This document shows positions 29,388-49,063 of a stretch of DNA of 64,000 bases, one piece after another. This DNA is from Psychrosphaera aestuarii (GTDB lineage Bacteria > Pseudomonadota > Gammaproteobacteria > Enterobacterales > Alteromonadaceae), in NCBI RefSeq assembly GCF_017948405.1, contig NZ_CP072844.1, positions 2,356,001 through 2,420,000 of the forward strand. Direction: 5' to 3'. The notes beneath the pieces are model-generated. The model ran no database searches. It had not been told where the DNA came from and was given only the letters and a program-made list of their open reading frames with translations. The number at the start of each line of letters is the position of its first letter. Position 1 is the stretch's first letter. The position numbers and the translations under genes were made by a program.

Positions 29388-31316
29388 TTACTTTGCTAAA
29401 GACAGCATCAACGTATTTAGACGCTTAACAAATGCTCCTGGATCTTTAATCGTTCCTCTTTCAGCCAAAGTAGCTTGGTCAAGTAACACTTCAACCCATT
29501 GTTTGTATTGCTCTTCGTCTTGCACTTGATCAACATGCTTCACTAATTCGTGCTCCATGTTAACTTCAAATACAGGCTTAACATCTGGTACTTCTTGACC
29601 CATTTGCTTCATCAGCTCAATCATTTGTGGGCTCATGTCGCTATTGCCCGTTACAATACAAGCTGGCGAATCAGTTAGACGGTGAGATACTTTCACTTCT
29701 TTAACTTTTCCGTCAAGTGCTGTTTGGAAGCGCTCAATGCTTGACGCAAATGCTTTATCAGACTCTTCTTGAGCTTTTTTAGACTCTTCGTCTTCTAAGT
29801 CACCTAAATCAAGATCGCCACGCGTAACAGAAACAAGTTGTTTACCATCAAAGTCAGTTAAATGTGACATTAACCACTCATCGATACGATCAACCATGAG
29901 TATCACTTCGATACCTTTCTTACGGAAGATTTCAAGCGCTGGGTTATTTGCAGCAGCTTCAAATGTATCCGCAACAAGATAATAAATTTTATCTTGGCCC
30001 TCTTTCATACGCTCTACGTAATCTGGGAAGGAGACAGATTGAGTTGCATCATCATTGTGAGTTGACGCAAATCGTAATAACTTAGCAATTGCTTCTTTAT
30101 TTGCGAAGTCTTCTGCTGGACCTTCTTTAAGGACTTGGCCAAATTCGTTCCAGAACACTTGATAGTTTTCTTTATCGTTTTTGCCCATACGATCAAGCAT
30201 TTTTATAACGCGAGAAGTACACGCTTTACGTAATGCTTGAGTTACCTTGTTATCTTGTAAAATTTCACGAGAAACGTTTAGTGGTAAATCATTTGAATCA
30301 ATTAAGCCTTTTACAAAACGTAAGTACGTTGGCATAAACTGTTCAGCGTCGTCCATAATGAAAACACGTTGAACATATAATTTCAGACCACGTTGTTTAT
30401 CTCGATTCCAAAGATCAAATGGTGCTTTCTTAGGAATATATAATAGTGATGTGTACTCATTAGTACCTTCAACTTTGTTGTGAGCCCACGTTAGTGGATC
30501 TTCAAAGTCGTGGCTAATGTGCTTGTAAAACTCTTTATAGTCTTTGTCTTCGAGCTCAGACTTATCTAATGTCCAAAGCGCATCCGCTTTATTGATAACT
30601 TCCCACTCGCCTGGCGTTGCTACGATTTTTTCACCATCTTCACCTTCAGATTCTGGTGTGCCCTCTTTCCACATCTCTACTGGTGTTGAGATATGATCTG
30701 AGTATTTTTTTATAATTTGGCGAAGTTTATAATCTTCAGCAAACTCTTTTTCATCTTCTTTTAAGAATAATGTAATTTCTGTGCCACGAGTCGCTTTCTC
30801 AATCGTTTCGATTGTATATTCGCCTTCACCTTCACTTGTCCACTCAACGCCATTATCTTTGCTGTCACCGGCCTTGCGAGAGCGAACAGTTACTTTATCG
30901 GCAACAATAAATGCCGAGTAAAAGCCAACACCAAACTGACCAATAAGTTGCGAATCACGTGCCTTATCACCCGTTAGGTTTTTAAAGAAATCAGCTGTGC
31001 CTGACTTTGCGATTGTACCTAAGTGGTTAGCAGCATCTTCAGCATTCATACCAATACCATTATCTTCAATCGTTACGGTATTTTTTTCGGCATCAAAACT
31101 TACACGAACACGCAGTTGTCCGTCATTTTCGTATAGATCATTGTTAGATAACGCTTCAAAACGAAGCTTATCTGCTGCATCGGCTGCGTTGGAGATAAGT
31201 TCACGCAAGAAAATCTCTTTGTTTGAGTACAAAGAGTGGATCATTAATTGTAATAGTTGTTTTACTTCGGTTTGAAAACCGTGAGTTTGTTTACCTTGAG
31301 TGGCTGCTTCTGCCAT
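29388..31316 (-). CDS. htpG: Hsp90 chaperone HtpG
   Basis: 642-residue dimeric ATP-driven chaperone. The GHKL ATPase N-domain carries [57 protein letters not shown] and [11 protein letters not shown]. The middle domain has the catalytic arginine segment [13 protein letters not shown], and the C-domain ends without an MEEVD tail, as in bacteria. AGGAGA lies nine or so bases ahead of the ATG. An RpoH-type promoter upstream predicts heat induction, as in E. coli. Confidence 0.97.
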
Positions 31317-31371
31317 GGTCAGGGTCTCCTTTATGTTTTACGTATTAAGACTTTAATCGTTTGATGACAAG

Positions 31372-31401
31372 TAAATAGGAGTGCACCTTAGGGTTTTCAA
31401 G
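31372..31401 (-). promoter_or_regulatory. RpoH (sigma-32) promoter of htpG
   Basis: On the minus strand CTTGAAA (31401-31395) is a perfect -35 and, after 15 bases, CCTATTTA (31379-31372) stands at -10. It is about 55 bases upstream of the htpG start. E. coli htpG is a sigma-32 gene, which supports the call. Confidence 0.75.
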
Positions 31402-31465
31402 GTCTATAAAAGTTTATTCTTGAAAAAAATGATATTTAATTTAAAAAAACGGGGGAGGTTCAAAT

Positions 31466-32083
31466 TTAGAATTGTTTACGGCCCATTAACGCATGGCTCA
31501 TTGTTGATGTATCGACCATTTCTAATTCGCCACCAACTGGAATTCCATGGGCAATACGTGTAATTGAGACATTATTAGACTTGCAGATATCTGCAATGTA
31601 ATGAGATGTTGCTTCGCCTTCTACACTTGGGTTTAGCGCGAGAATAACTTCTTCTACTGCTGGTTTTGTTGGGTCAGTTCCATCACTTGCTAATACTTCC
31701 TCTAACTGAGATAAGCCAAGCTCCTGTGGACCAATTCCGTCTATCGGCGATAAACAACCGTGTAACACAAAGTACCGACCTGAATAATGACCACTTTGTT
31801 CAACCGCAGCCAAATCTGATACTGACTCTACAATACATAATAAGGCATTTTGAGTTCGACGAGTATTAGTGCATATATCACACAGCTCTAACTCTGTGTA
31901 ATTTCGGCATTGCTGGCACTGACCGATATCTGCCAACCCCTTCGCTAATGTATTAGCTAATTCAGTACCCGCTTGACGCTTATGCTGCAGTAAATGATAA
32001 GCCATGCGTTGTGCCGTTTTTGGACCTACGCCGGGTAAACACTGTAATTGCTCAATCATTTTCTGTAATAAACTAGCTTGCAC
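31466..32083 (-). CDS. recR: Recombination mediator RecR
   Basis: 205 residues. Acts with RecF/RecO to load RecA on gapped DNA. N-terminal helix-hairpin-helix (LQCLPGVGPKTAQRMAYHLL), four-cysteine zinc finger (CQQCRNYTELELCDIC), TOPRIM domain (LLCIVESVSDLAAVEQSGHY, LNPSVEGEATSHYIA) and C-terminal RIAHGIPVGGELEMVDTSTM. It is 40 bases downstream of ybaB, the standard dnaX-ybaB-recR order. Confidence 0.97.
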   Translation of the reverse strand: MQASLLQKMIEQLQCLPGVGPKTAQRMAYHLLQHKRQAGTELANTLAKGLADIGQCQQCRNYTELELCDICTNTRRTQNALLCIVESVSDLAAVEQSGHYSGRYFVLHGCLSPIDGIGPQELGLSQLEEVLASDGTDPTKPAVEEVILALNPSVEGEATSHYIADICKSNNVSITRIAHGIPVGGELEMVDTSTMSHALMGRKQF

Positions 32084-32123
32084 TGAATTAACCTCTTAAT
32101 TTACATGTAATCTATCTTGTGGC

Positions 32124-32450
32124 TTAAAACGGCATCTTCATGCCTGGAGGCATGCCCATTCCACCTGTCAATTTACCCATTTGCTCTTTATTCATTTCTT
32201 CAACACGACGTACTGCGTCGTTCACAGCGGCCGCTAACAGATCTTCAATCATGTCTTTGTCGTCTTCCATTAAAGACTCGTCTAACTCAACACGTTTGAC
32301 GTTGTGGCTTCCTAGCATAGTTACTTTAACAAGACCTGCACCAGACTCACCAACCACTTCCATTTTTGCCAAGTCTTCTTGCATCTTTTGCATTTTTTCT
32401 TGCATTTGTTGGGCTTGTTTCATGATGTTGCCCATTCCGCCTTTAAACAT
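32124..32450 (-). CDS. ybaB: YbaB/EbfC nucleoid-associated protein
   Basis: 108 residues. A DNA-binding dimer found with dnaX and recR across bacteria. [27 protein letters not shown] forms the long N-terminal helix, and [19 protein letters not shown] is the central sheet. The C-terminus is glycine/methionine rich ([18 protein letters not shown]), typical of the family. Confidence 0.95.
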
Positions 32451-32520
32451 AATATTTTCCTCTCAATTTTATCCGCTTAGTATGCGGTCTAATTTGTGTA
32501 AAACAAGGTTTTGTCCCTTG

Positions 32521-34647
32521 CTATAAAGGTTTAATTGAATTGTCGATTAATTTTGCGCCGAATTCGTTAATCAATGTGTTCACCATTGGATCTTGGTGAA
32601 TACTATCTTCTGCGCGCTGTTGTCTATTTAAGTTAATATTTTGCTGAATATCAGCTGGGGCTGTTGTTGTAATAGCGCTTTTGTTAATTATAAATTCAGA
32701 AGCCGGCGCTAGTTGTGCAACTACAGCTGTTAATTCTTGTTCAGACTTTTCATTTAGTAAGTGAGCGAATTCTTGGCGAACTATCAATTCTATTCGCTCA
32801 CCATCTATATTAACTTCACTATTTAATGCCAGTTGGCGACCTAAGCCTTGTAGATGAGATTGCTCTATCATCGCCGCCCAACGGTCAACTTCGTGCGCAT
32901 AACGCACTGATTCACTCTCTACGTCTTGTAAACTGGACTCATCAATTACTTGAACGTGTTCGGCTTCTACTAAATTTGCATTATGTTTCGCATTTTGCTC
33001 AGAGCTTAATGTTTCAATTGGCGCATTTTCACTTGCCAAAGTAGCATTTTGTTCACTTGTTTGATGAAGAACTTCTTCTGTAGCTTGATGTTCGGAGTTT
33101 TTTATATTTGTCTGTTCAGCTAAATCTGTTTTAGCTTTGTTGACGTTCCCTAAGTCTATGCCTCGACTTGCTAATATAGCGAGAACAGGGTTTTGCTCAG
33201 CACCATCAGGAAATACAGGATTTTCTGAAGCTAGTGGTTGCTCGGAGTATGCATTGCCCTGTGATGCAGTATCCAAATTAGAGTCGACAACAGGATCATT
33301 GCCAAACGAATCGCTATTTTGATATTGGTACTGTTCGCTGACATCATTTTCATCATACATGACATGACCGTAATCTGGGACAGGTTCAGCAGGTTCAGCA
33401 GGTTCAGCAGGTTCAGCAGGTTCAGCAGGTTCACTCTCAGATTGAACTGATTTATTTGCAACCGCTACTTGCTCTATTTCATGCAAAACCTCAGGAACTT
33501 TAACCTTAACTTGGCTTGGCGAAGCTACCTCATTAAGGTTTTTTTTTTCTAGCTCTTGAGGCTGTGCAGGGCTGAATGCTAACAACCTTAAACACGCCAT
33601 TTCCAGCGCTGAGGCTGGGTCTGAGCTATAAGGCAGTTCTTTTTTGCTTTGAATGAGAAGCTGATAGTTTACTTGAATTTGCTGTGCCGATACGGCTAAC
33701 GCTAAAGACTTTATTAAATCTTCGTTCGTTTCGCTTAATTGGGCAGCACTAGGAAGTAACTGACACATAGCAATTTGGTGCGTCAACGTGAGAAGATCGT
33801 CAAATATTTTTTCAAAATCTGGCTGTTGTTGTCGTAATCGAGAGAACAGGTCAACGAGTTGTGCAGAATCCTTATTTGCTATCAAACATAAGATTTGCTG
33901 ACTCCATGTTTGATCTACCGTACCTAACATTTGTTGCACTATAGACAGTGTGACATTTTGTCCTGATTGAGCAATCGCTTGGTCAGTTAGACTCAAACCA
34001 TCACGCATACTTCCCCTAGCATACTTCGCTAGCAGCACAAGTGCTTCAGGCTCATAAGGGATTTTTTCTGCATTTAATATATAAGTAAGTTGATCGCCAA
34101 TTTGTTGAATTGATAGGGCTTGTAAGTTGAATTGCAAACACCTAGATAAAATAGTCACTGGTAGCTTTTGCGGATCCGTAGTCGCAAATAAAAATTTTAC
34201 GTGCTCCGGAGGCTCTTCAAGCGTCTTTAATAACGCGTTAAAGCTATGACGCGATAACATGTGGACTTCATCGATTAAATAAATCTTATATCGACCACGC
34301 GTAGGGGCGTACTGAACATTATCTAAAATTTCGCGAGTATCACCAACTTTAGTTCTTGACGCGGCATCTATCTCGATTAAATCAACAAAACGGCCTGCAT
34401 CAACATCCAAACAAACCGGACATTGCCCACAAGGCTCTGCAGAAATACCGGCCTCGCAATTTAAACTTTTAGCAAATATTCGAGCGATTGTAGTTTTACC
34501 AACACCTCTTGTACCAGTAAATAAATAAGCATGATGAGTGCGTTGTTGAGTTAACCCGTTAATAATTGCCGACTTAACATGATCTTGACCAACAAGTTCA
34601 GAAAACTTAGTGGGCCGCCATTTTCTTGCTAATACTTGATAACTCAT
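32521..34647 (-). CDS. dnaX: DNA polymerase III tau subunit (possibly also gamma by frameshifting)
   Basis: 708 residues. Clamp-loader ATPase: Walker A GTRGVGKTT near 45-53, zinc module CEAGISAEPCGQCPVC, Walker B LIDEVHML, sensor region FATTDPQKLPVTILSRCLQF, then domain III to about residue 365. Beyond this lies a long low-conservation linker with five EPA repeats (about 407-421) and a C-terminal domain that in tau binds DnaB and the alpha subunit. A run of ten A at codons 367-370 could give a -1 product ending at residue 371 (see separate entry). Gene order apt-dnaX-ybaB-recR is conserved. Confidence 0.96.
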   Translation of the reverse strand: MSYQVLARKWRPTKFSELVGQDHVKSAIINGLTQQRTHHAYLFTGTRGVGKTTIARIFAKSLNCEAGISAEPCGQCPVCLDVDAGRFVDLIEIDAASRTKVGDTREILDNVQYAPTRGRYKIYLIDEVHMLSRHSFNALLKTLEEPPEHVKFLFATTDPQKLPVTILSRCLQFNLQALSIQQIGDQLTYILNAEKIPYEPEALVLLAKYARGSMRDGLSLTDQAIAQSGQNVTLSIVQQMLGTVDQTWSQQILCLIANKDSAQLVDLFSRLRQQQPDFEKIFDDLLTLTHQIAMCQLLPSAAQLSETNEDLIKSLALAVSAQQIQVNYQLLIQSKKELPYSSDPASALEMACLRLLAFSPAQPQELEKKNLNEVASPSQVKVKVPEVLHEIEQVAVANKSVQSESEPAEPAEPAEPAEPAEPVPDYGHVMYDENDVSEQYQYQNSDSFGNDPVVDSNLDTASQGNAYSEQPLASENPVFPDGAEQNPVLAILASRGIDLGNVNKAKTDLAEQTNIKNSEHQATEEVLHQTSEQNATLASENAPIETLSSEQNAKHNANLVEAEHVQVIDESSLQDVESESVRYAHEVDRWAAMIEQSHLQGLGRQLALNSEVNIDGERIELIVRQEFAHLLNEKSEQELTAVVAQLAPASEFIINKSAITTTAPADIQQNINLNRQQRAEDSIHQDPMVNTLINEFGAKLIDNSIKPL
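33383..33433. repeat. 9-bp tandem repeat inside dnaX
   Basis: GGTTCAGCA is repeated exactly five times (33383-33427) and then begins a sixth time. On the coding strand it gives E-P-A repeats in the tau linker. Identical 9-mers are prone to slip in replication, so copy number may vary between strains without breaking the frame. Confidence 0.95.
33502..33549 (-). other. Predicted dnaX slippage site: A10 run plus hairpin
   Basis: The coding strand has ten consecutive A (33548-33539) spanning E367-K368-K369-N370. A -1 shift reads K-P-stop (AAA CCT TAA), a +1 shift also stops within five codons. Directly 3' AACCTTAA (33540-33533) can pair with TTAAGGTT (33509-33502), with inner GCTT/AAGC. The product of the -1 shift would be 371 residues, ending where clamp-loader domain III ends, the size expected of a gamma-like subunit. 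Confidence 0.6.
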
Positions 34648-34670
34648 GACAGCTCACCCTTCATAAACAA

Positions 34671-35204
34671 TTACTCACCTTCAAATGAAGTTAAGCTATA
34701 ACAATCGATATCAAGCTTTGACAGTCGCGATTCACCACCGATATCGGGTAAATTAACCACAAAACAGGCATCTGAAACATTCGCACCTAATTTTCTTATC
34801 AACTTCATGGTAGCTTCAATTGTGCCACCCGTTGCTAATAAATCATCAACCATCAGAACTTTATCTGTTTCTGTTAGTGCGTCAGTATGAAGCTCTAGAA
34901 TGTCTTCACCATATTCTAATTGATAAGCCTGTGAATAAACTGCTCTAGGTAACTTGCCAGGCTTTCTAACAGGAATAAACGAGACGTTCAGCTTGTAGGC
35001 TAACGGCGCGCCAAAAATAAAGCCTCTTGCTTCTGTTCCAACAATAGCGGTAATACCCGAATCTTTATAACGCTCATAAAATGCGTTAATTGTGGCTGAA
35101 AATGCCTCGGCATTCTGCATGAGGGACGTAACATCTCTAAACTGAATACCTGGCTTTGGATAGTCTGGTATTGTTTTAATACTATTTTTAATCAAATCCG
35201 ACAT
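34671..35204 (-). CDS. apt: Adenine phosphoribosyltransferase
   Basis: 177 residues. Salvages adenine to AMP using PRPP. The PRPP motif is [21 protein letters not shown], with the [14 protein letters not shown] and [18 protein letters not shown] segments typical of Apt. It lies 23 bases ahead of dnaX, as in E. coli, and is probably co-transcribed with it. Confidence 0.96.
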
Positions 35205-35257
35205 TTCGGCTCTCTTTGACTTAACTTAAGGCAAGTATGCCAGAAGCCTTTGATATG

Positions 35258-35283
35258 AAAAATACCTTTGCAAAGATATTTTT
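35258..35283. terminator. Hairpin directly after hvfC
   Basis: AAAAATACCTT and AAGATATTTTT form an eleven-pair stem (one wobble) around TGCA, immediately next to the hvfC stop codon. The stem is AT-rich with T-runs in its arm. Likely a terminator of the hvf operon and possibly a shield for apt on the same strand. Confidence 0.5.
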
Positions 35284-36066
35284 CTATTCGATTACAATTA
35301 CGCCTTTATCGGAAAAATCTTTCAGCGCTGAACGCAAGAAATTTGATATTTTTTCAGGATCAGAGTCTTGCTCATTTGATTGAAAATAGGAAAATAAATC
35401 GTTAAATGTCGCGTTGTTTCGTTGTTCAATATAATTGAGCAAATAGATTGAAGCGTGATTAGTATGTAAAAAGCACACCTCACCCTGGTGATCTAAATAC
35501 ACAACAAGACAAGTGGCTATTGGTTTAAGCTCAGCGATGCGCTCTGCTTTAATTGTATGAACAGGATAATGATAGGCCAATGCCCATGTTGAGTCCGGAA
35601 CATTCAAAGTGCTACGTTCATGCCATTCATCATTTTTTGTGGGTGGTTCTTGCAATGAAACGGTTAATTCTACCCATTCATAGTGAGCTAATTCATGTAA
35701 ATACGGAGGTACAACCACTCCACTTTCTTTGACATGCTGTCCTGTTAAAAATAGCAAAAACTGCTCGGCAATATCCACAAAGTAAGGCGATGATTTTTCA
35801 CCATAAATTAAAAACGCTCGAATAAGACTATGCCACTGTGCGTCTGTGAATACTGTCTTTAGTACGGGAAATGCATTAGCACAAAAGCCTTCCGCATTGT
35901 TAAACACAAGCTCTTGGTAAACTTTTAAACGCCTCGCCTCAAAGTGATTAGACTCTGCGGGGTTAATAATGGCTTCGGTTAAAGACTTTTGTAATTCACG
36001 AAAACCTAAAGACTGGCTACTCGAACTTTTAGCAGATTGTGAAAGGTTTTTATGATCATTTTTCAT
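35284..36066 (-). CDS. hvfC: HvfC, DUF2063 partner protein of the MNIO enzyme
   Basis: 260 residues. The N-terminal half matches the DUF2063 (putative DNA-binding) family: LQKSLTEAIINPAESNHFEARRLKVYQELVFNN, FCANAFPVLKTVF, and LHELAHYEWVEL. In copper-peptide clusters the DUF2063 protein is thought to bring the precursor to the DUF692 enzyme rather than bind DNA. The C-terminal half is a less conserved domain with a winged-helix look (LLNYIEQRNNATFNDLFSYF). Its start overlaps the hvfB stop by four bases, so the two are coupled. Substrate recruitment is inferred from homologues. Confidence 0.85.
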   Translation of the reverse strand: MKNDHKNLSQSAKSSSSQSLGFRELQKSLTEAIINPAESNHFEARRLKVYQELVFNNAEGFCANAFPVLKTVFTDAQWHSLIRAFLIYGEKSSPYFVDIAEQFLLFLTGQHVKESGVVVPPYLHELAHYEWVELTVSLQEPPTKNDEWHERSTLNVPDSTWALAYHYPVHTIKAERIAELKPIATCLVVYLDHQGEVCFLHTNHASIYLLNYIEQRNNATFNDLFSYFQSNEQDSDPEKISNFLRSALKDFSDKGVIVIE

Positions 36067-36890
36067 ACCGAGGATGGTCGCTTACTAAACTTGTTTTGAA
36101 TTGCACTAATTTGGCCTGTTTCACCTAACATTTCTGATAATTCTGGAATATTAAAATCGCGTTCTAATAACGTAGGAAATACACCGTGACATTGGTAAGC
36201 ATACTCTAAAAGAGACCAAACTTCGGGCTTAACTGCACTACCATGAGTGTCTATTTTTAAGTCATCATCTTCATCATAATGTCCAGCTATATGACCACAT
36301 AAAATGGCAGTTGAGGGCATAGCTTGAATAAACGATTTGGCATCATAATTATGATTAATACTATTTACGTAAACATTATTCACGTCGAGCAACAAATCAC
36401 ACTTCGCCTCCTCTAATACAATTTGAGTGAACTCTATTTCATTTAATTCATTAGATGGCGATAAATAATAGGATACATTTTCTATTGCTATTTTTCGCTC
36501 GAGTATATCTTGGACTTGTTGAATTCGTTTTGCTACATAACGAGCAGCATCATACGTAAATGGTATGGGCATTAAGTCATAAACATGACCATTAGACGAA
36601 CAGTAACTTAAGTGTTCAGAATAAGATTCAACGTTATAAGCGTCTAAAAAAGATTTTACATTTTTTACAAATTCAATATCTAGTGGATCAGGGCTACCTA
36701 AAGAAAGTGATAAGCCGTGTGTAGATAAGGGTATATTTTCGGTGAGCTCCTTTAATGGTTTTTGATATAAGCTATTCATTCGCATCCAATTCTCTGGCGC
36801 GACTTCAACGTAATCGATATTAGCCGATAAAATTTCTTTATTCATACTAACCATTTCGCGTCGATAACCTAATCCAACTCCCTTAACCAT
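36063..36890 (-). CDS. hvfB: HvfB, multinuclear non-heme iron oxidase (DUF692/MbnB family)
   Basis: 275 residues with the DUF692 TIM-barrel signatures in order: GVGLGYRREMV, DYVEVAPENWMR, STHGLSLSLGSPDPLD, YSEHLSYC, ENVSYYLSP, LLLDVNNVYVNSINH, GHIAGHYDEDDD, DTHGSAVKPEVWSLLEYA and TLLERDFNIPEL. The H, E, D and N residues in these motifs are the iron ligands in MbnB/HvfB-type enzymes, which turn cysteines into oxazolone-thioamide or related copper-binding groups using O2. Its likely substrate is the EGKCG peptide encoded 64 bases upstream. A terminator-like hairpin between the genes would lower its expression relative to the precursor. Confidence 0.9.
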   Translation of the reverse strand: MVKGVGLGYRREMVSMNKEILSANIDYVEVAPENWMRMNSLYQKPLKELTENIPLSTHGLSLSLGSPDPLDIEFVKNVKSFLDAYNVESYSEHLSYCSSNGHVYDLMPIPFTYDAARYVAKRIQQVQDILERKIAIENVSYYLSPSNELNEIEFTQIVLEEAKCDLLLDVNNVYVNSINHNYDAKSFIQAMPSTAILCGHIAGHYDEDDDLKIDTHGSAVKPEVWSLLEYAYQCHGVFPTLLERDFNIPELSEMLGETGQISAIQNKFSKRPSSV

Positions 36891-36908
36891 TACTGCCCCT
36901 TTAAAATT

Positions 36909-36935
36909 AAAAAAGCAGCCAGCAAGGCTGACTGC
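36909..36935 (-). terminator. Intercistronic terminator/attenuator between hvfA and hvfB
   Basis: On the minus strand CAGCC (36930-36926), loop TTGCT and GGCTG (36920-36916) are followed by C and six T (36914-36909). It lies 24 bases after the hvfA stop and before the hvfB start. The short GC stem suggests partial termination. Confidence 0.6.
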
Positions 36936-36954
36936 AACTTAAGGTCCAACTCAG

Positions 36955-37416
36955 TTAGAGTGTGCCGCCACATTTACCTTCGCCGCACTTACCTTCTTTA
37001 GCCTTGTTAGCTTTGTCTTTCATTTTACCTTTCATTTTGTCAGCACCGCATTTGCCTTCGCCGCACTTACCTTCTTTAGCCTTGTTAGCTTTGTCTTTCA
37101 TTTTTTCTTTCATTTTGTCAGCGCCACATTTGCCTTCGCCGCACTTACCCTCTTTAGCTTTTTTAGCTTTGTCTTTCATTTTGTCTGCGCCGCATTTACC
37201 TTCGCCGCACTTACCCTCTTTAGCCTTTTTAGCTTTGTCTTTCATTTTATCTGCGCCGCATTTACCTTCACCGCACTTACCTTCCATATTTTCTATCTGA
37301 TAACCAGTTTCAAGTGTTGTTGCTTGAAAAGACATTGATTGAGCAGAAGCGATTGAAGATGTAGCTAAAGCAGCCAGACCTAATGCTGCCAGTGTTGCTT
37401 TTTTATTAGTATTCAT
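36955..37416 (-). CDS. hvfA: HvfA-type copper-binding peptide precursor with ten EGKCG cores
   Basis: 153 residues from ATG 37416, chosen over the upstream in-frame 37482 because GGGA precedes it and MNTNKKATLAALGLAALATSSIASA is then a clean signal peptide. The mature part contains five EGKCGEGKCG pairs (ten cysteines) linked by lysine-rich ADKMKDKAKKAK spacers. The only cysteines are in these cores. HvfA/bufferin-type peptides of this design are modified on cysteine by the DUF692 enzyme next door and bind copper in the periplasm. The function is inferred from motif and neighbours. Ten cores exceed the usual few, so this is a long example. Confidence 0.88.
   Translation of the reverse strand: MNTNKKATLAALGLAALATSSIASAQSMSFQATTLETGYQIENMEGKCGEGKCGADKMKDKAKKAKEGKCGEGKCGADKMKDKAKKAKEGKCGEGKCGADKMKEKMKDKANKAKEGKCGEGKCGADKMKGKMKDKANKAKEGKCGEGKCGGTL
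36964..37292. repeat. Imperfect tandem repeats of 66 and 78 bp coding the HvfA cores
   Basis: Four near-identical units plus a partial fifth. Two encode 22 residues and two encode 26 residues, the longer ones having an extra MKEK or MKGK-type insert in the spacer. Differences are mostly third-position changes, showing recent duplication. Recombination among them could change core number. Confidence 0.9.
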
Positions 37417-37442
37417 ATTAATCCCGTTTATTTTATTTAGTC

Positions 37443-37492
37443 GAAATATTAGATAGTTATTAAAAAGACCGACAAATACCAACTAATATTTC
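37443..37492. promoter_or_regulatory. Perfect 10-bp inverted repeat bracketing the hvfA promoter
   Basis: GAAATATTAG (37443-37452) and CTAATATTTC (37483-37492) are exact reverse complements, 30 bases apart and 40 bases centre to centre, close to four helical turns. One arm overlaps the predicted -10 and the other lies just upstream of the -35. This is the layout of a two-site operator. The regulator is unknown. Confidence 0.5.
37448..37475 (-). promoter_or_regulatory. Candidate hvfA promoter
   Basis: On the minus strand TTGTCG (37475-37470), a 16-base spacer and TCTAAT (37453-37448) lie about 32 bases before the hvfA ATG. Four and five of six consensus bases match. Confidence 0.45.
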
Positions 37493-37582
37493 ATTATCAT
37501 CTATAGTTTTATTTAAATGAAAAAAATAGCAAGTGTTTAATATTGACTATAATTAGTTAATTAGGCATTAGCGAGGTTTCAT

Positions 37583-38089
37583 ATGATCTTTAACCATTTA
37601 GATACGTCTTTTAGAGACCGTTTATCGGGTTTATACAGCGAGGAATACTTTGTTCAAGTATTTCATCGTGAATGGCATAGGATGTTACGCGAGAAAGATG
37701 CTCTGTCAGTATTAATAATTCACCCGCACTTAAATACAAACCGAGAAGACGATAAATTAGCATTTAAACTTGTATCAGAGTCAATTAAACGCAGTACAAA
37801 ACGATCTACGGACTTAGTGTGTCGTTTTCACTCAAATGAAATTGCGATAGGATTATTTAATCTTGACGAAAGTGGCACTGAAGCTGTAGTAAAACGTATC
37901 ATCAGCGATATAAATGAAAGCTTAGGGAATTTTACCTACCCTATCGATTTGTCCATTGGTGCACTCAATCTTTTTCCATCACCCACCATTGATTTAGAAG
38001 AAGTATTTTTAAAAACGGAAAAGTTGGCTGACGCAGCAGAGCTTGAAGGAAAAAATGCATATAAACTGGAATACTTGAGCTTACATTAG
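37583..38089 (+). CDS. Degenerate GGDEF-domain protein, probably inactive
   Basis: 168 residues that thread onto a GGDEF domain with no extra sensor. DRLSGLYSEEYFVQVFHREW matches the DxLTGLxNRRxF start of GGDEF domains, LSVLIIHPHLN replaces the usual FDIDxFKxIND, and the active loop reads FHSNEIAIGLFN instead of GGDEF. LSIGALNLFPS and the closing KLADAAELEGKNAYKL match the domain end. The metal and GTP residues are lost, so cyclase activity is unlikely; a c-di-GMP or protein-binding role is possible. It is divergent from hvfA and has a perfect TATAAT (37548-37553) upstream. A link to the hvf genes is only positional. Confidence 0.8.
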   Translation: MIFNHLDTSFRDRLSGLYSEEYFVQVFHREWHRMLREKDALSVLIIHPHLNTNREDDKLAFKLVSESIKRSTKRSTDLVCRFHSNEIAIGLFNLDESGTEAVVKRIISDINESLGNFTYPIDLSIGALNLFPSPTIDLEEVFLKTEKLADAAELEGKNAYKLEYLSLH

Positions 38090-38195
38090 CTGGATCATAT
38101 TTTAAGGTTCTTGAAAAGGTTTTGAAGATTGGCGTTTATGTAACAAGGTACCGATCGTTAATTGAATGTGCATCATAAGGTTGAATAATTTGATA

Positions 38196-38226
38196 TAAAA
38201 AAACCGCCTGAAGGCGGTTTTTTTTT
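38196..38226. terminator. Bidirectional terminator
   Basis: AAAAAAACCGCC, TGAA loop and GGCGGTTTTTTTTT. A strong GC stem with long A/T flanks between the degenerate GGDEF gene and the convergent TonB operon. It serves both. Confidence 0.93.
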
Positions 38227-38241
38227 ACATTAACGGTGAAA

Positions 38242-39510
38242 TTAAAGTTTTACGCCATCGCGTTCAGCTGCTTCACGAATATACGCTTCCCAGCTAGCTG
38301 CAGACTTTGCAGTGTTCTTTTCTTTCATTGCTAACTTTATAGCTTTGTGAGCTTGTTTCCACTGGCGCTGATAAAAGTGAGCTTCAGCAATCGCCATGTA
38401 GACAACACCCTTGCGCTCAACTCCAGCATCTAGTGCTTTATTATACGCAACAACGGCTTCTTTATTCTTTTCTAAAGCCAAAAGCATATTACCTTGGTCT
38501 TTATAAAGGTCGCCATCATTAGCCAATTGTGCTGCTTGACCATAATACTCGGCCGCTTTTGCAAATTCTTTTGCATTACGGTAAGTGCTGGCTAAAACAG
38601 ACAGTGACTGTCTAGACTTTTTAATCAAACCCTCTTTCAAGTGTTTCTCTTGAACAACTGCAGATTTGTAAGGAATACCGTTAGTTGAATATAATTGAGC
38701 TAGCTGTTTAATCTGGTTTTCTGTTTCCAAGAAACCCTGTTTATAAGCTAATTCAAGTGTAGACAAACCACGCTCGTAGTCCTCTGTAGTCATATAAAAA
38801 GAGCCAAGCTGAGTCCACCACTTAGGGTTTTCTGGGAACACCTTAACAAGGTCTTCTACTGCTTTTGTAGCTTCTTTATACTTTTTAGACTCGTAGTACG
38901 ATGCCATGATGATAATGTACGGATTTTGGTTTGGTGTCTCAAACAATTCAATCGCACGACGAGCAGGCTTAATCGCCTTATCGTACTCTTTCATTTCGTA
39001 TAACACGTTCGCCATTCTCAAGTAAGTTGTAGGATCTTCATCTAATGAAAAATCTAAAAACTCTTGGTAATGTTTTAATGCCGTCTCAAAATCACGTTCT
39101 TGAAGAGACAAGTCCGCGATAAGCTTTATCGTTGCAGCATGGTCAGTGAACGGCAATACATCAGCTTTTTTCGCTTTTTTTAATCTCTCAAGAGCTACTG
39201 GAGCTTTACCTTCAATGCCGGCATACATGTTACCGATAAAACGATCAACATAAGCTTTGTCAAATGCGCCTTTTGGTTCAATCTCAAGAAGCAATTCTAG
39301 TGCTTCATTGACTTTATCTTCTGAGTACAACTCAAAAGCGGCGCCAATTTTTTTACCTACACGTTGTCCTAAAACCTGTCCACCACGCTCCTTCTTACGG
39401 CGCTCAACTTCTTCTAACTTATCGTTAGGAACTTTAGCACTCGCTGGAAGTGTAGCAAAGATAGATAATGCAGTTAATGAAACTGTTAGAAACTTAATTA
39501 CAGAATTCAT
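38242..39510 (-). CDS. Periplasmic TPR protein of the TonB operon
   Basis: 422 residues. A signal peptide (MNSVIKFLTVSLTALSIFATLPASA) is followed by about ten TPR-like helix pairs from residue 45 to the end (ALKHYQEFLDFSLDEDPTTY, EYDKAIKPARRAIELF, EFAKAAEYYGQAAQLA and others). ATG 39510 is chosen over 39525, since the upstream start would overlap tonB and add MGAIN ahead of the signal. TPR proteins close alternative TonB (TonB2-type) operons in Vibrio, Shewanella and relatives and support TonB-dependent uptake. One base separates it from tonB. Confidence 0.87.
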   Translation of the reverse strand: MNSVIKFLTVSLTALSIFATLPASAKVPNDKLEEVERRKKERGGQVLGQRVGKKIGAAFELYSEDKVNEALELLLEIEPKGAFDKAYVDRFIGNMYAGIEGKAPVALERLKKAKKADVLPFTDHAATIKLIADLSLQERDFETALKHYQEFLDFSLDEDPTTYLRMANVLYEMKEYDKAIKPARRAIELFETPNQNPYIIIMASYYESKKYKEATKAVEDLVKVFPENPKWWTQLGSFYMTTEDYERGLSTLELAYKQGFLETENQIKQLAQLYSTNGIPYKSAVVQEKHLKEGLIKKSRQSLSVLASTYRNAKEFAKAAEYYGQAAQLANDGDLYKDQGNMLLALEKNKEAVVAYNKALDAGVERKGVVYMAIAEAHFYQRQWKQAHKAIKLAMKEKNTAKSAASWEAYIREAAERDGVKL

Positions 39511-39511
39511 A

Positions 39512-40129
39512 TTAATTGCCCCCATCTAGATTGAAGTCTAACTGAACTTGAAGACCAGTCTGACGCTGTGGTTTTCCATCTACAACTTTAGGCTTATATT
39601 TCCATCTTTGAAGTGCACGTCTTGCTTCTCTATCGAAAACACGGCGCGGTTCTGAGTTGATAACTTGAACATTCTCAACTCCACCGACTTCATTAATTTC
39701 AAAACTAAGTTGTACCCAACCTGAAATGCCGTCTCGTTGCGCTTTCGCAGGAAACTTAGGCTCAATTCGAACGATCGGTGTTGCGTCACCGTCTCGTATA
39801 AGAGCGCCTGGGCCATTCAAACCAGCACTTGCACCACCTACATCAACAGAAGGCATATTAAAGCTAATACCTCCGGCATCTGAAATCTGTGGTTCAGGAT
39901 CAGGTTGCTGCGGTTTAGGCGGTTGTTTAGGTGGTGGAGGCGGCGGCGGCGGAACACGATTACGTTTCTGCGCTTTGCTCTCCGGCGGCGTAGTATTTAT
40001 TTCGACTATGATATTCTCGAATTCATTCTGGTTGGACTTACCTCCACTAGAGATAAGTTCAGCCATGAATACGAACAAGCCGAATGTGATTACTACACCA
40101 ACTATTATTGATGCAATAAATCTCAACAT
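39512..40129 (-). CDS. tonB: TonB-family energy transducer (TonB2 type)
   Basis: 205 residues, short like TonB2. An N-terminal membrane anchor (about 5-27, FIASIIVGVVITFGLFVFMA), a proline-rich span beginning with eight prolines near residue 60, then the TonB C-terminal domain: VRIEPKFPAKAQRDGISGWV, VQLSFEINEVGGVENVQVI and REARRALQRWKYKPKVVDG. It transfers proton-motive energy from ExbB/ExbD to outer-membrane receptors. No receptor gene is in the window. The genes around it form a six-gene operon. Confidence 0.93.
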   Translation of the reverse strand: MLRFIASIIVGVVITFGLFVFMAELISSGGKSNQNEFENIIVEINTTPPESKAQKRNRVPPPPPPPPKQPPKPQQPDPEPQISDAGGISFNMPSVDVGGASAGLNGPGALIRDGDATPIVRIEPKFPAKAQRDGISGWVQLSFEINEVGGVENVQVINSEPRRVFDREARRALQRWKYKPKVVDGKPQRQTGLQVQLDFNLDGGN

Positions 40130-40130
40130 A

Positions 40131-40535
40131 CTACTTCTTCTCCGCTGCGATTGAAATTTTCTCTATACCAGCAGACTTAATCGCATCCATTACTTTAACA
40201 ACTACACCATGTTTTGCTTCTTTATCAGCTTGGATAATAACTGTATCCGTTGGCTGTTCAGCAATCATACGCTCAATGTTTGCTGCAACACGTTCTACGT
40301 CTACTTGACGCTTATCCATGTGCACTTCACCATTTGGCTTGATTGCGATAAAGATATTCGCTGATGGCTTATTGGTTGCGTTAGAAGCTTTTGGCTTCAA
40401 TACATCAATACCGGCCTCTTTTACAAAAGACGTGGTAACAATAAAGAAGATAAGCATGATAAATACGATGTCTAACATCGGTGTCATATCAATTGCTGCA
40501 TCGTCGTCATCACGAAAACGTTGTTTACGTGCCAT
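40131..40535 (-). CDS. exbD: Biopolymer transport protein ExbD
   Basis: 134 residues with one N-terminal membrane helix (IDMTPMLDIVFIMLIFFIVTTSF) bearing the proton-path aspartate near residue 22, and a periplasmic TolR-like domain ending VMDAIKSAGIEKISIAAEKK. It works with the ExbB protein encoded 11 bases upstream. Confidence 0.95.
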   Translation of the reverse strand: MARKQRFRDDDDAAIDMTPMLDIVFIMLIFFIVTTSFVKEAGIDVLKPKASNATNKPSANIFIAIKPNGEVHMDKRQVDVERVAANIERMIAEQPTDTVIIQADKEAKHGVVVKVMDAIKSAGIEKISIAAEKK

Positions 40536-40546
40536 AGTTCAATCTC

Positions 40547-41074
40547 CTAGTGATGTGGCAAGCTATCTACTAGCTTCTCTTTTGCCACTTTAACTCTTGT
40601 TTCAAGCCTTGAGCTGAAAAATATTCCAGATAAAGCTGCAACCATTCCAGCCATTGTAGGGATAGTTGCCATGGAAATACCAGCAGCCATTAGGCGTGGA
40701 TTACCAGTTCCTTGTGATGCCATAGTGTCAAATACAGTTATCATACCTGTTACCGTACCTAAAAGGCCGATTAGAGGACACATTGCAACAAGAGTTTTAA
40801 TAATTAACATTCTTGCATTTAATAGTTCGGATGCTTCAGAAACCCAAGCTTCACGGATTCTATGAGCACTCCAAGATGTGGTATCTGCTCGAGCGTCCCA
40901 GCTTGCGATTATATTATCGCGAACTTTAGGAAATTCAGCGGTTAAAAACCACCAACGCTCAATCATTAACGCCCACATAATTAGAAGAGCTGCGGCGACA
41001 AAGTAAAGTACAAAGCCGCCCGTGCCGATAAAATCCCTGACAGATTCCCATAGGCCTATCAGGTAAATCATCAT
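40547..41074 (-). CDS. exbB: ExbB-type MotA/TolQ proton channel protein
   Basis: 175 residues, shorter than ExbB1. Three membrane helices: about 16-36, then around 88-112 (MLIIKTLVAMCPLIGLLGTVTGMITVF) and about 128-150 (AAGISMATIPTMAGMVAALSGIFF). The G-T-V-T-G-M channel motif is intact. Forms the pentamer around ExbD. Its start shares one base with the preceding stop. Confidence 0.94.
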   Translation of the reverse strand: MMIYLIGLWESVRDFIGTGGFVLYFVAAALLIMWALMIERWWFLTAEFPKVRDNIIASWDARADTTSWSAHRIREAWVSEASELLNARMLIIKTLVAMCPLIGLLGTVTGMITVFDTMASQGTGNPRLMAAGISMATIPTMAGMVAALSGIFFSSRLETRVKVAKEKLVDSLPHH

Positions 41075-42435
41075 TACGCTTTCTCCTTCTCAGCATGTGC
41101 TGCAATGATGCCTGCGCTTTGTTCATCTAGTACATGAACAATTGATTTAGCGCGTGCTGCTACAACACTGTGCACGAAGATTAATGGTAATGCTGCGATG
41201 ATACCCATAGCTGTTGTTACCAATGCCATAGAGATTGAACCAGCCATTAGTTTCGGGTCACCCGTACCGAATAACGTGATTTGTTGGAAAGTTTCGATCA
41301 TACCAACAACCGTACCTAGTAGACCTAAAAGAGGAGCTACTGCTGCAAGGATCTTAATAGTATTGATACCGCTTTCTATGCGAGGAGTTTCACGTAGAAT
41401 AGCTTCATCTAATTTAAGTTCTAAATTCTCAACATCAGAGTCTTTATTTTCTTGGTATATTTTAAGAATACGGCCAAGAGCATTATTATCTTTAGGTGTT
41501 GAAGTATCTTTAAGCTGAGCTTTCATCTTAGAACCTTCACCTAGTGTGATTACTAAGCTACGCAATGCTAATAAGAAACCAAATGCTAAAACAACCGTAA
41601 TTACATAACCTGGAGTACCACCTTGGTGATAACGATCTTCAAGTGTTGCTTTTTGAGTGTTTAGACGCAAGATACCACCGCGTGAAGGGTCAACGTAAAA
41701 CGCAACTAATTCACCAGGAGTAGCATTCGCAAGATCTTCTGCAGATGAACGGTAGTGAGATTCAGCAGCTTTACCTAAGTGCTGAACGATTTGCACGTCA
41801 GAATTGTAGATAACATAGTCACCAGATTCTGTTACTAAGTTAAATGCACCAACTCGAGTTAGTTTTTCAACAGCAGAACCACCAGCAGTTGCCGATACTT
41901 CTTTGTCAAAAGATACAACTTTTGCAGACTCAGTCATTTCAGTCTGTAAAGCGATCCATAATTCTTCTAATTCACGCGTAGTAGGAAGTTTTTTAGCTTC
42001 AGCTAGCTCTGTTAATAGCTCAGCACGACCAGGGTACTGTGCAGAAATAATAGATGCTGAAACAGAACCCATAGTGTCACCAGCTGCTTGACGAACAACA
42101 CCAAACATCTCACCTAGAGTACCTTTAGCGTTTTCTAGTTCTTGAGCACGAACCGCTAGTGTTTTTTCGTTTTGATTATATTGCTTTTGTAAACGAACAC
42201 CACGATCTTTCTCGTCAGCTAGTTCTTTTTTAGCTTTGTTTAATAAACCTTGCTTGTCTGCTTTAAGAGCATTGAATTCTTGCTCACGTTTTTTATTTAA
42301 AGCGCCTTCAGAAATTCGGTCTTGTTTTACTTGCTTTAACAAGTCATCTAACTTGCCTTCAGCGCTTACATTAGCTACGAAGCCAGCTGATGAAACTACA
42401 GCCGCTAAAACCAATGAATTAAAAATCTTTTTCAT
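41074..42435 (-). CDS. Long TolQ/ExbB-like protein (TtpC type)
   Basis: 453 residues. A signal peptide (about 1-25) and a periplasmic coiled-coil (about 30-115, LKADKQGLLNKAKKELADEKDR), a non-coiled middle to about 265, then three helices: near 268-290, near 355-385 (KILAAVAPLLGLLGTVVGMIETF) and near 400-425 (SISMALVTTAMGIIAALPLI). This fused form is the extra ExbB-like part of TonB2 systems of marine gammaproteobacteria, where it is needed for energy transduction. It precedes the short ExbB. Confidence 0.9.
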   Translation of the reverse strand: MKKIFNSLVLAAVVSSAGFVANVSAEGKLDDLLKQVKQDRISEGALNKKREQEFNALKADKQGLLNKAKKELADEKDRGVRLQKQYNQNEKTLAVRAQELENAKGTLGEMFGVVRQAAGDTMGSVSASIISAQYPGRAELLTELAEAKKLPTTRELEELWIALQTEMTESAKVVSFDKEVSATAGGSAVEKLTRVGAFNLVTESGDYVIYNSDVQIVQHLGKAAESHYRSSAEDLANATPGELVAFYVDPSRGGILRLNTQKATLEDRYHQGGTPGYVITVVLAFGFLLALRSLVITLGEGSKMKAQLKDTSTPKDNNALGRILKIYQENKDSDVENLELKLDEAILRETPRIESGINTIKILAAVAPLLGLLGTVVGMIETFQQITLFGTGDPKLMAGSISMALVTTAMGIIAALPLIFVHSVVAARAKSIVHVLDEQSAGIIAAHAEKEKA

Positions 42436-42441
42436 GTGTTA

Positions 42442-43209
42442 TTACTCCGCGGCAAAGATTGGTAATTTGATTAACTCATATGGCGCTTGCTTACGAGCCA
42501 TACGTATTGTCAATGTCACATCTTTTAGGTACTCATCACCTAGTTTAGTCCAACCGCGAACGCTGTTGTCCCAAACCCAAGCACTTTTAAGATCTTTCGA
42601 CTGTGCAATCAGTGCAATTCTGCCTACGTGAACGAAGTCTGCTGTAATTTCTTGGCCGCCTAAGTTCTCAGTAGCTTCCCAAGCTTCAACAGCTGTACCG
42701 TAATCTTTTTCAATTTGGTAAGCTTCTAATACTTGGCGGTACTTTTCTGAAGTACTCACGTTAGGGTTGATCATAGTTGCACGAAGTTTTTCAACACGAG
42801 CTACTCGGCGATCTAGTTTGATAGGCATATCAGCTTCAACAAACTTTTCTAGCATATCGATCATGCGATACATTAATGGAACAACGTTACGCTTTGTATT
42901 TTCAATCTCAGCGATTTGATCTTCTAAAGATTTGATCTCATCGTTCTGAGCAGCAACAAGCTTTGCTACGTGGTCGTTGTAAACTTTGTTAATTTCAGTT
43001 TCTGCAACAACATCACGGTATTCAAACATTAACTCGGTAGTTTGCTCTTGAATAGCGTTTATTTTTGTTTGTGATTTAGCAGCCGCTTTATGAATTGTGC
43101 GCTCTGCAGCGTGTATTTGCTCTAGAGGATCAGCAGCTAGTGCAGAACCGGCAAATGCAACCGCCCCTACGAGAGCTGAAGCTACTAGACTTAGTTTCAT
43201 CTTTGACAT
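42442..43209 (-). CDS. DUF3450 periplasmic coiled-coil protein
   Basis: 255 residues. ATG 43209 is used instead of the upstream TTG 43218, with GGGA before it. The signal peptide is MKLSLVASALVGAVAFAGSALA within the first 25 residues. A long coiled-coil (about 30-115) is followed by VPLMYRMIDMLEKFVEADMP and an alpha/beta tail (WDNSVRGWTKLGDEYLKDV). DUF3450 proteins lead TonB2-type operons in Alteromonadales and Vibrionales. The detailed role is not known. Confidence 0.87.
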   Translation of the reverse strand: MSKMKLSLVASALVGAVAFAGSALAADPLEQIHAAERTIHKAAAKSQTKINAIQEQTTELMFEYRDVVAETEINKVYNDHVAKLVAAQNDEIKSLEDQIAEIENTKRNVVPLMYRMIDMLEKFVEADMPIKLDRRVARVEKLRATMINPNVSTSEKYRQVLEAYQIEKDYGTAVEAWEATENLGGQEITADFVHVGRIALIAQSKDLKSAWVWDNSVRGWTKLGDEYLKDVTLTIRMARKQAPYELIKLPIFAAE

Positions 43210-43261
43210 AGTTCCCAACCAATGTATGTGTTTAAATTTCTATTTTAGAGTATTAACTCCG

Positions 43262-43287
43262 TATTTGCGGGATAACACCCACAAATA
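43262..43287 (-). promoter_or_regulatory. 5'-end hairpin in the TonB operon leader
   Basis: On the minus strand TATTTGTGGG pairs with CCCGCAAATA around TGTTAT, ten pairs with one G-U. That pair is a wobble only if the RNA is read on the minus strand, supporting direction. If the predicted promoter is right, this would sit at the very 5' end and could protect the long mRNA. Confidence 0.5.
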
Positions 43288-43297
43288 ATCACTATGG

Positions 43298-43326
43298 AGT
43301 GTCCCAAACATATTCGTGAATGTCAA
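43298..43326 (-). promoter_or_regulatory. Candidate promoter of the DUF3450-TonB operon
   Basis: Minus-strand TTGACA (43326-43321) is a perfect -35. A 17-base spacer leads to GACACT (43303-43298), a weak -10 with three matches. Confidence 0.35.
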
Positions 43327-43543
43327 TTCACTATATTGTATCTATTCGCATTTTTATAAAGTGTGCATTTCAGCATCAATAAACGACTAAAATATGCACT
43401 TTGACGTTTAACATAATCAATATGCATTCATATTTTCATAGCTTTAGTATAGAAAAGAATTACAGAATTAGTGACTGATACGATTGAATTTAAAACAATA
43501 TGCTCAACAGAGCTCATTTCTTTTCGTTCAGAATTTAACTTTG

Positions 43544-46045: not shown

Positions 46046-46068
46046 ATCAAAAGTTTGAGATGACCGTT

Positions 46069-46096
46069 ATAATACCCTTAAGAATTAGGTATTCAA
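46069..46096 (-). promoter_or_regulatory. Candidate polB promoter
   Basis: Minus-strand TTGAAT (46096-46091), 16-base spacer and TATTAT (46074-46069), 24 bases ahead of the polB start. Four and five matches to consensus. Confidence 0.4.
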
Positions 46097-46128
46097 CTAT
46101 TGCCTGATAGTATAAGTGGAGAAGTCTT

Positions 46129-46926: not shown

Positions 46927-46947
46927 TTTAACTTAGGAATACGAAAC

Positions 46948-47538: not shown

Positions 47539-47539
47539 T

Positions 47540-48451: not shown

Positions 48452-48513
48452 TTTTTGCCCATTTCTCTAATTCAGTGTTATGTTTATAAACAGAAATTAA
48501 AAAGGAAATCGCA

Positions 48514-48786: not shown

Positions 48787-48798
48787 GGTTATTCCACG

Positions 48799-48966: not shown

Positions 48967-48999
48967 TTCGTAAAGATTCCATTTGGAGTTTTTATAAAG

Positions 49000-49027
49000 A
49001 AAAAGCACAGCCTTGCTGTGCTTTTTT
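49000..49027. terminator. Terminator after ybaM, convergent with the ABC operon
   Basis: AAAAGCACAGC, short loop, GCTGTGCTTTTTT. A long stem with A and T flanks that can serve both sides. Confidence 0.9.
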
Positions 49028-49063
49028 ATATCAGAGGTCACTCTGCCTAAATGAATACTTCCA

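Follow-up and report, generated by a model that had tools for sequence, protein, structure and literature searches.

The hvfABC gene cluster

The window, that is, the whole 64,000-nucleotide stretch analysed here (Psychrosphaera aestuarii, contig NZ_CP072844.1, positions 2,356,001 to 2,420,000), carries on its minus strand a three-gene cluster, hvfABC, which encodes a secreted precursor, an MNIO (DUF692) enzyme and a DUF2063 partner (Table 1). An initial annotation had recognised these genes, including the overlap of 4 bp between hvfB and hvfC, and had assigned them to HvfABC-type copper-peptide biosynthesis. Coordinates, open reading frames and family models agree with this gene content, and the assignment is supported by the family models together with the published chemistry of relatives (PMC12668002, PMC12538549, PMC13419390; here and below, published systems are quoted from the available parts of the papers). 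What had been overlooked are a promoter of the extracytoplasmic function (ECF) type ahead of hvfA and a hairpin between hvfA and hvfB.

Table 1. Features of the hvfABC locus and the associated sigma factor gene (positions in the window unless stated otherwise)
Feature	Position	Strand	Description and basis
hvfA, secreted precursor	36955-37416	minus	open reading frame, 153 aa from ATG 37416; NF050137
hvfB, MNIO (DUF692) enzyme	36063-36890	minus	275 aa; PF05114, NF003818
hvfC, DUF2063 partner (recognition element for ribosomally synthesized and post-translationally modified peptides, RiPPs)	35284-36066	minus	260 aa; PF09836, PF22106, NF050145
ECF-type promoter TGAAAT-N17-GGTCTT (predicted)	37465-37493	minus	48 nt ahead of hvfA start codon
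Intrinsic-terminator-like hairpin	36915-36935	minus	9-bp stem with a 3-nt loop, followed by six T; between hvfA and hvfB
Predicted Sec signal peptide of HvfA	37342-37416	minus	about 25 residues, end ...IASA, followed by Q; by eye
Leader motif F-x7-GY (F30 to Y39)	37300-37329	minus	conservation in HvfA leaders
HvfA core region, five EGKCGEGKCG pairs, Lys-rich linkers of 12 and 16 residues	36967-37284	minus	translation, repeat analysis
ECF sigma gene	1178385-1178897 of own genome	minus	NF009170, 286.8 bits, cut-off 197

Against Pfam, HvfB matched PF05114 (324.9 bits) and HvfC matched PF09836 and PF22106, and no match was obtained for HvfA. With the NCBIfam models, HvfA scored 102 bits for the HvfA domain NF050137 (cut-off 19.5), HvfB 411 bits for NF003818 (cut-off 360) and HvfC 206 bits for NF050145 (cut-off 142). 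The features that define the oxazolin/captophorin (EGKCG) family were all found: repeated EGKCG behind a signal peptide (by eye), an adjoining HvfB-type MNIO with an intact metal site, and a DUF2063/HvfC partner. We conclude that the cluster is an ordinary member of this known and published kind, in which cysteines are converted to copper-binding 5-thiooxazoles. Two other MNIO systems were considered and rejected: the bufferins (Buf1/Buf2), as HvfA has no Pfam match (DUF2282) and HvfB scored 254 vs 310 for NF050167, the Buf_6/12Cys profile not being compared; and methanobactin, as HvfB reached 48.5 for the MbnB equivalog TIGR04159 (cut-off 325). The genome (3.05 Mb, one contig) held a single MNIO match, and in a pattern scan allowing up to one mismatch hvfA was the sole match, with no second EGKCG precursor.

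Residues H58, H93, E137, D169, N171, N172, H200, D214, H216 and E243, candidates for the metal site of HvfB by the fold, were identical in all of the 72 sequences compared; these include PDB 3BWW over its aligned part (44% identity to HvfB). This bears out the annotation, which had credited the enzyme with all motif residues. In the HvfB of Haemophilus influenzae, N175, D242 and H244 are needed for activity (PMC13419390); judged by motif only, they appear to match the LDVNN and DTHG stretches of the window's enzyme. The only solved relative found for HvfC was 3DEE (E 3e-4).

The precursor and its repeats

HvfA has ten cysteines, all of them in KCG motifs, every one of which is EGKCG, in five EGKCGEGKCG pairs, as the annotation had counted. 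The repeat is real at the DNA level (66- and 78-bp units, 93% match). Pairs are spaced by 22 or 26 residues, compared to 16 or 17 in many relatives, the linker being the variable part. The leader motif F-x7-GY was present in 61 of 63 HvfA leaders, with AY instead of GY in the remaining two, and F30, G38 and Y39 were invariant across 16 aligned sequences; from this conservation, it is a possible recognition element.

The annotation had called the precursor unusually long and had proposed comparing core numbers among relatives. A search for HvfB covered 147 genomes of this taxonomic family, the own one among them; 70 were over the cut-off and gave 71 loci. Of these, 64 had an adjoining uncut precursor (the leader of one, L067, was masked), three had a precursor cut by a contig end, and four showed none in the DNA available (L062, L064, L072 and L094; upstream DNA is short for L072 and L094, and the former starts with an apparent precursor end). 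The number of KCG motifs among the 64 precursors (own included) had a median of 12 and a range of 4 to 26; it was below ten in 23, exactly ten in 4 and above ten in 37. Because of these counts, and because a published survey of the Buf_EGKCG/oxazolin type gives precursors of 31 to 506 residues with up to 58 cysteines (PMC12452194), ten motifs must be regarded as ordinary, not long. The longest precursor found in the family set, at L096 (genome G031), is encoded by a frame of 300 residues and has 26 KCG motifs, mostly in regular 18-residue repeats. The lysine-rich helices that had been proposed between the cores found no echo in an AlphaFold2 model of HvfA (16 sequences), which had a mean predicted local distance difference test score of 38 and no assigned secondary structure; this is evidence neither way, and the model was not used.

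A two-box motif ahead of hvfA

Word counts were made over the 220 bases upstream of hvfA at 63 of the 64 loci, the masked L067 being excluded. GGTCTA occurred at 26 loci (3.1 expected) and GTGAAATA at 10 (0.6 expected). The combined motif, TGAAAT-N17-GGTCT, was found exactly at 40 of the 63 loci (own included), and at 51 with at most one mismatch. With spacers of 12 to 16 and 18 to 21, the same pair gave no exact match and a total of nine one-mismatch matches; no match with up to one mismatch was found on the reverse strand, and no exact match in five shuffles. Neither strand of the window has a GAAA-N18-GGTC other than the site ahead of hvfA. Since it consists of two short boxes with a fixed spacer, positioned near the start codon, the motif has the shape of an ECF-sigma promoter.

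Other control elements were tried and rejected. A sigma-70 promoter scan was of no use (8 sites, 10.4 expected); for a palindromic operator, no dyad on a par with the two-box motif was found upstream of hvfA; and the published Shewanella motifs of RpoE (GAACTT) and RpoE2/ChrR (TGATCC-CGTATT) differ from the one found here (PMC4336711).

In two genomes of the same genus (G036 and G077), hvfA is an orphan, with hvfBC about 58 kb off on the same contig, and the orphan hvfA carries the ECF-type promoter. That the promoter was kept despite the distance to hvfBC counts for a link between promoter and hvfA. The hvfBC loci of these genomes (L062 and L064, respectively) have no adjoining hvfA; an IS3-like transposase gene (by eye) lies upstream in G036.

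Association with an ECF sigma factor

Among 14 sigma-type matches in the own genome, one ECF gene has GGAAAT-N17-GGTCTA directly upstream (Table 1). It overlaps a gene of the DUF3379 family (PF11859), and relatives of DUF3379 were found at all 30 sigma loci that were examined with enough flank (own included). Past a single hydrophobic stretch (by eye), one cysteine is invariant (30/30) and two histidines nearly so (29/30 each): C158, H115 and H167, in a numbering that counts one extra residue before the Met, from which the cysteine is C157. In the own genome the DUF3379 gene lies at 762-1472 (minus) of L124, and the invariant cysteine and two histidines fall in the presumed periplasmic part. 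From its position and build, the DUF3379 protein is a putative membrane-anchored anti-sigma, and possibly a metal or thiol sensor.

Upstream regions were compared for 65 sigma loci, which come from 63 genomes including the own one, with two weak matches excluded. GAAA-N18-GGTC was present in 57, in 53 of them with a constant distance to the start, and no such pair was found at spacers 15 to 17 and 19 to 22; spacer 14 gave 14 matches, all of which come from a stretch like GAAAGAAA within the first box. The target hvfA and the sigma gene thus share a promoter motif, as expected of an ECF sigma regulon (NF009170 with DUF3379). In those 53 loci (of L128-L192) the box is close to the start codon, with the first box at about -36, which would leave the sigma mRNA with almost no leader. 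Of the eight sigma genes that lack the motif, four sit directly behind doxX genes (L186, L187, L190 and L191), whose products are 54 to 63% identical to the DoxX of the own genome. In one genome (G126), hvfABC, doxX, the sigma gene and DUF3379 adjoin one another.

The sigma factor was found (E 1e-20) in 63 of the 70 hvfB genomes of the family and was missing in seven; one genus (g18) holds genomes of both kinds. In sigma-bearing genomes, the core motif was present upstream of hvfA at 50 of 56 loci, compared to none of seven loci in sigma-less ones; when two mismatches or a one-base shorter spacer were allowed, it was present at 55 of 56 vs none of seven. A later test, with the motif already fixed, was carried out on 148 genomes drawn from the order, of which 39 had an EGKCG precursor, 31 of these belonging to other families. 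One locus each could be taken from 27 of the 31: the motif stood at hvfA in 11 of 13 genomes with a close sigma orthologue (at least 51% identity), compared to none of 14 without (a different start-codon rule gives 10 instead of 11, L213 being the difference). The 11 loci are spread over three families (f6, f15 and f20). Apart from the exceptions detailed below, the motif at hvfA goes with the presence of the sigma factor.

These data also bear on whether the motif could be the binding site of an activator or repressor and not an ECF promoter. The co-occurrence with the sigma factor could stem from shared ancestry, and the promoter is predicted from sequence. Yet two boxes with one fixed spacer and one direction suit a promoter better, and the same boxes precede the ECF sigma gene itself, mostly at a fixed distance from its start codon; we therefore regard a binding site as unlikely.

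Candidate regulon

The strict pattern KGAAAT-N17-GGTCTW gave four sites in the own genome, compared to none for the reversed pattern. They lie ahead of hvfA, the sigma gene, gshA (glutamate-cysteine ligase, 37 nt ahead) and a gene for a secreted AhpC/TSA peroxiredoxin (57 nt ahead), each 7 to 57 nt from the start and in the right direction. Four genomes of the same genus added 19 strict sites. The assignable ones lie, in G108, ahead of hvfA, the sigma gene and the peroxiredoxin gene; in both G036 and G077, ahead of the orphan hvfA, a di-haem peroxidase gene and a divergent pair that encodes a TonB receptor and a protein weakly resembling DoxX; in G077 also ahead of a gene for a thioredoxin-like protein; and in G134 ahead of the sigma gene. 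One copy of each same-genus target kind was scanned with Pfam, the other being judged by its matching start. From the comparison with relatives, one stress sigma probably turns on hvfA together with glutathione and peroxide-defence genes. In the own genome, a one-mismatch site, TGTAAT-N17-GGTCTT, lies ahead of a thioredoxin-like frame (by eye; L122, minus, near 3144), to be compared with the exact site in G077. The own doxX (L103) was rejected as a target, with no GAAA-N18-GGTC within 3.3 kb around it.

Such a list raises the possibility that the peptide serves mainly in defence against thiol stress and oxidants (hypochlorite, peroxide), with copper binding secondary and the sigma factor answering oxidants. 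The co-regulated candidates gshA, AhpC/TSA-type proteins and di-haem peroxidase would fit this role, and the hvf cluster of H. influenzae is RpoE2-dependent under hypochlorite (PMC7907618). However, relatives of the peptide bind Cu(I) (PMC12538549, PMC12668002), and the comparable SigF regulon of Caulobacter is copper-induced, its mutant being copper-sensitive (PMC8224329). The two roles moreover overlap, as copper itself causes thiol and oxidant stress. A mainly oxidant-directed role is conceivable, but we think it doubtful.

A hairpin between hvfA and hvfB

A terminator scan of the region returned three sites where 2.2 were expected, so that the hairpin of the window is not significant alone. 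Across the family, however, a hairpin was found in 46 of 63 measurable hvfA-hvfB gaps, compared to 1.9 expected from dinucleotide shuffles. Of the 71 loci, four had no adjoining precursor and four were dropped since the frames overlap by the start-codon rule used (L090 and L100-L102). Eight of the gaps without a hairpin are at most 18 bases long. Attenuation, by which more substrate than enzyme would be made, is the natural reading of this element. At loci of the sigma-less genomes (L099-L102, L024, L087 and L090), either there was no hvfA-hvfB hairpin, or the two genes almost touched or overlapped, as if two regulatory designs existed.

The state of these elements also speaks to whether the cluster might be a silent or decaying remnant. 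The mmr products of Microbulbifer were undetected in culture (PMC12538549), but in the window all frames are open, the enzyme site is intact and the promoter is present, and the corresponding place in Psychrosphaera haliotis holds a cluster of ten motifs that likewise has promoter and hairpin. We consider a remnant highly improbable.

Neighbouring genes

No DoxX gene adjoins the cluster, in line with the annotation, and such neighbours are rare: PF07681 was found within 5 kb at 2 of the 71 hvfB loci (weak relatives, and neighbours beyond contig ends would be missed). The genome has one DoxX match elsewhere, 0.49 Mb away. Divergent from hvfA, at 37583-38089 (plus), lies a gene for a 168-aa GGDEF-domain protein (PF00990) with SNEI at the expected GGDEF signature (by eye), which suggests that the protein is probably inactive; a similar GGDEF-like frame is found at the same place in P. 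haliotis. Further on is a row of TPR, TonB, ExbD, two MotA/TolQ/ExbB and DUF3450 genes (38242-43218, minus), in part also beside hvf in P. haliotis. The stretch from TonB to DUF3450 (39512-43218) begins 2 kb upstream of hvfA.

The presence of TonB, ExbD and two MotA/TolQ/ExbB genes 2 to 5 kb off (39512-42435), partly so in P. haliotis, could point to a chalkophore, that is, a modified peptide that is cut into cassettes, secreted and retaken for copper acquisition, like methanobactin, with which the MNIO chemistry is common. A TonB-dependent receptor gene also has the same promoter motif in two genomes of the same genus. Against this, no receptor, protease or exporter was recognised (largely by eye) among the frames at 30000-43000 or the long frames at 43200-50000, in agreement with the annotation, which had noted no receptor or exporter gene beside the cluster. 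The receptor site is absent from the own genome with the strict pattern, HvfB lies far under the MbnB cut-off, and the authors of the Microbulbifer study favour protection (PMC12538549). Copper acquisition is thus quite unlikely.

Proposed function and control

The best explanation, and in our view a probable one, is that the cluster produces a periplasmic Cu(I)-binding EGKCG polypeptide which is switched on by an ECF sigma factor held by DUF3379. According to this proposal, hvfABC would make a ribosomal polypeptide of the oxazolin/captophorin (EGKCG) family. The membrane-anchored DUF3379 protein may act as the anti-sigma that holds the sigma factor, which is encoded elsewhere in the genome, and copper, thiol or oxidant stress in the envelope would be the signal that frees it. 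RNA polymerase with the freed sigma would then start at TGAAAT-N17-GGTCT ahead of hvfA; the majority of transcripts would end at the hairpin past hvfA and some would continue into hvfBC, yielding more substrate than enzyme. HvfC would bind the leader, HvfB would convert up to ten KCG cysteines to 5-thiooxazoles, presumably ahead of Sec export, and the modified product would buffer periplasmic Cu(I), with gshA and the secreted peroxiredoxin raised by the same sigma. Genes, motifs, hairpin and co-occurrence are the observed part of this scheme. The chemistry and copper binding of the window's peptide would be those of its relatives.

Several observations weigh against this explanation or narrow its basis. 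HvfA scored below the narrow equivalog NF050188 (84.3 bits, cut-off 95), and by sequence it is a member of the HvfA family, not a strict equivalog of that model. Absence of the sigma factor means no match at E 1e-20. The seven sigma-less genomes represent four genera and hence at most about four independent cases, and the Fisher values (3e-6 and 6e-6) are overstated, as the genomes are related. The sole exception to the relaxed motif is a second-type, EF-hand-like locus (in G137), and in the other families two of the 13 sigma-bearing genomes lacked the motif at hvfA. One genome with matches of only 38 to 44% identity (G183) was counted there as sigma-less; counted otherwise, the comparison becomes 11 of 14 vs none of 13. 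No hairpin was found in 17 of the 63 measurable gaps, that of the same-genus genome G108 (130 bases) among them. The gshA site is present in the own genome only, of five in the genus, and six strict sites are uncertain or accidental (one in G108, one in G077 and four in G134). By bare count over the five genus genomes, the strict pattern is barely enriched (23 compared to 18 for the reversed pattern); the case for the regulon is built on where the sites lie, on their recurrence at orthologues and on co-occurrence. Finally, one or two copper ions seen per gonophorin argue against one copper per ring pair (PMC12668002).

With somewhat less confidence, though still as the favoured view, we propose that the NF009170 sigma and its DUF3379 anti-sigma form a dedicated sensor of envelope copper and thiol stress, both in the family of the window and in three or more other families of the same order. 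Its core target would be the EGKCG thiooxazole peptide; co-induced with it would be glutathione synthesis and secreted peroxiredoxins and, in certain species, also DoxX, a TonB receptor and a di-haem peroxidase. The cluster is one more member of a family with established chemistry, and the gain is regulatory: the promoter and the sigma gene, together with the putative anti-sigma and a few targets, make the metallophore role directly testable.

Comparison with known systems

In the literature searched, outside which most subscription journals lie, no report of a DUF3379-linked sigma acting on EGKCG clusters was recognised, which is not proof of absence, and the term DUF3379 occurred in no paper. 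Copper-responsive ECF factors are known in other settings: SigAb of Acinetobacter works with other anti-sigmas (PMC12153292), and CorE is copper-dependent without an anti-sigma (PMC10141476).

The nearest named relative found is the hvf locus of P. haliotis (L109), with an HvfB 70% identical and ten EGKCG motifs. Its neighbours are those of the window (TonB and TPR genes, a GGDEF-like gene, apt and dnaX), and it has CGAAAT-N17-GGTCT upstream and a hairpin between A and B. All four linkers of its HvfA are of the 16-residue form, unlike those of the window.

The chemistry of the group is documented for several members. HvfBC oxidises six cysteines of H. influenzae HvfA, with products assigned as 5-thiooxazoles (PMC13419390); fontiphorin, oxazolin and gonophorin all contain 5-thiooxazoles, with a loss of four hydrogens per motif (PMC12668002); and MmrBC of Microbulbifer modifies six cysteines of MmrA, a 12-residue fragment of the product binding Cu(I) (PMC12538549). 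If the HvfA of the window behaves likewise, its mass would fall by about 40 Da. A high copper capacity of the ten-cysteine peptide, as put forward in the annotation, is plausible, but the authors of the gonophorin work suspect stochastic copper binding by EGKCG peptides (PMC12668002).

Among the individual systems, oxazolin, the HvfABC product of nontypeable H. influenzae, shares with the window the A, B and C genes, EGKCG pairs, a Sec signal, MNIO and DUF2063 proteins and ECF-sigma control (PMC13419390, PMC7907618). Its HvfA has six cysteines in three pairs, compared to ten here, and its operon includes the DoxX-like HvfX, whereas the cluster of the window has no adjoining one (PMC13419390). 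The bulbicupramide (MmrABC) clusters of Microbulbifer resemble it in having three genes without a protease and, in the available text, without mention of DoxX, in their Lys-separated EGKCG cassettes and marine origin, and bind Cu(I); their precursors have five to eight cysteines, whereas that of the window has ten and longer linkers (PMC12538549). Fontiphorin and the captophorins have EGKCG repeats that lose four hydrogens per motif and an MNIO dependent on the recognition element, but FonA has seven sites, and no control element is described in the accessible portions of these papers (PMC12668002, PMC13097082). The Buf_EGKCG/oxazolin survey provides the family definition and reports variable repeats of up to 58 cysteines and precursor genes apart from MNIO genes; its repeats are of 17 residues, compared to 22 and 26 here, and it reports sigma genes for Buf1 clusters, whereas its available sections name none for EGKCG clusters (PMC12452194).

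For control, a close parallel is the SigF-NrsF regulon of Caulobacter, in which both DUF692 clusters and a redox repair system respond to copper through an ECF sigma; it differs in its DUF2282-type precursor and in its NrsF anti-sigma (PMC8224329). The anti-sigma of RpoE2 in H. influenzae is a cytoplasmic, zinc-type protein of 67 aa (PMC7907618), whereas the one proposed here is a DUF3379 protein of 236 aa with one hydrophobic stretch. If the proposal holds, peptide clusters of one kind have come, in different bacteria, to be linked with anti-sigmas of unlike build (HrsE of the zinc type, NrsF and, probably, DUF3379), and this variety would argue for a place of the peptide in the envelope stress response and not in copper acquisition.

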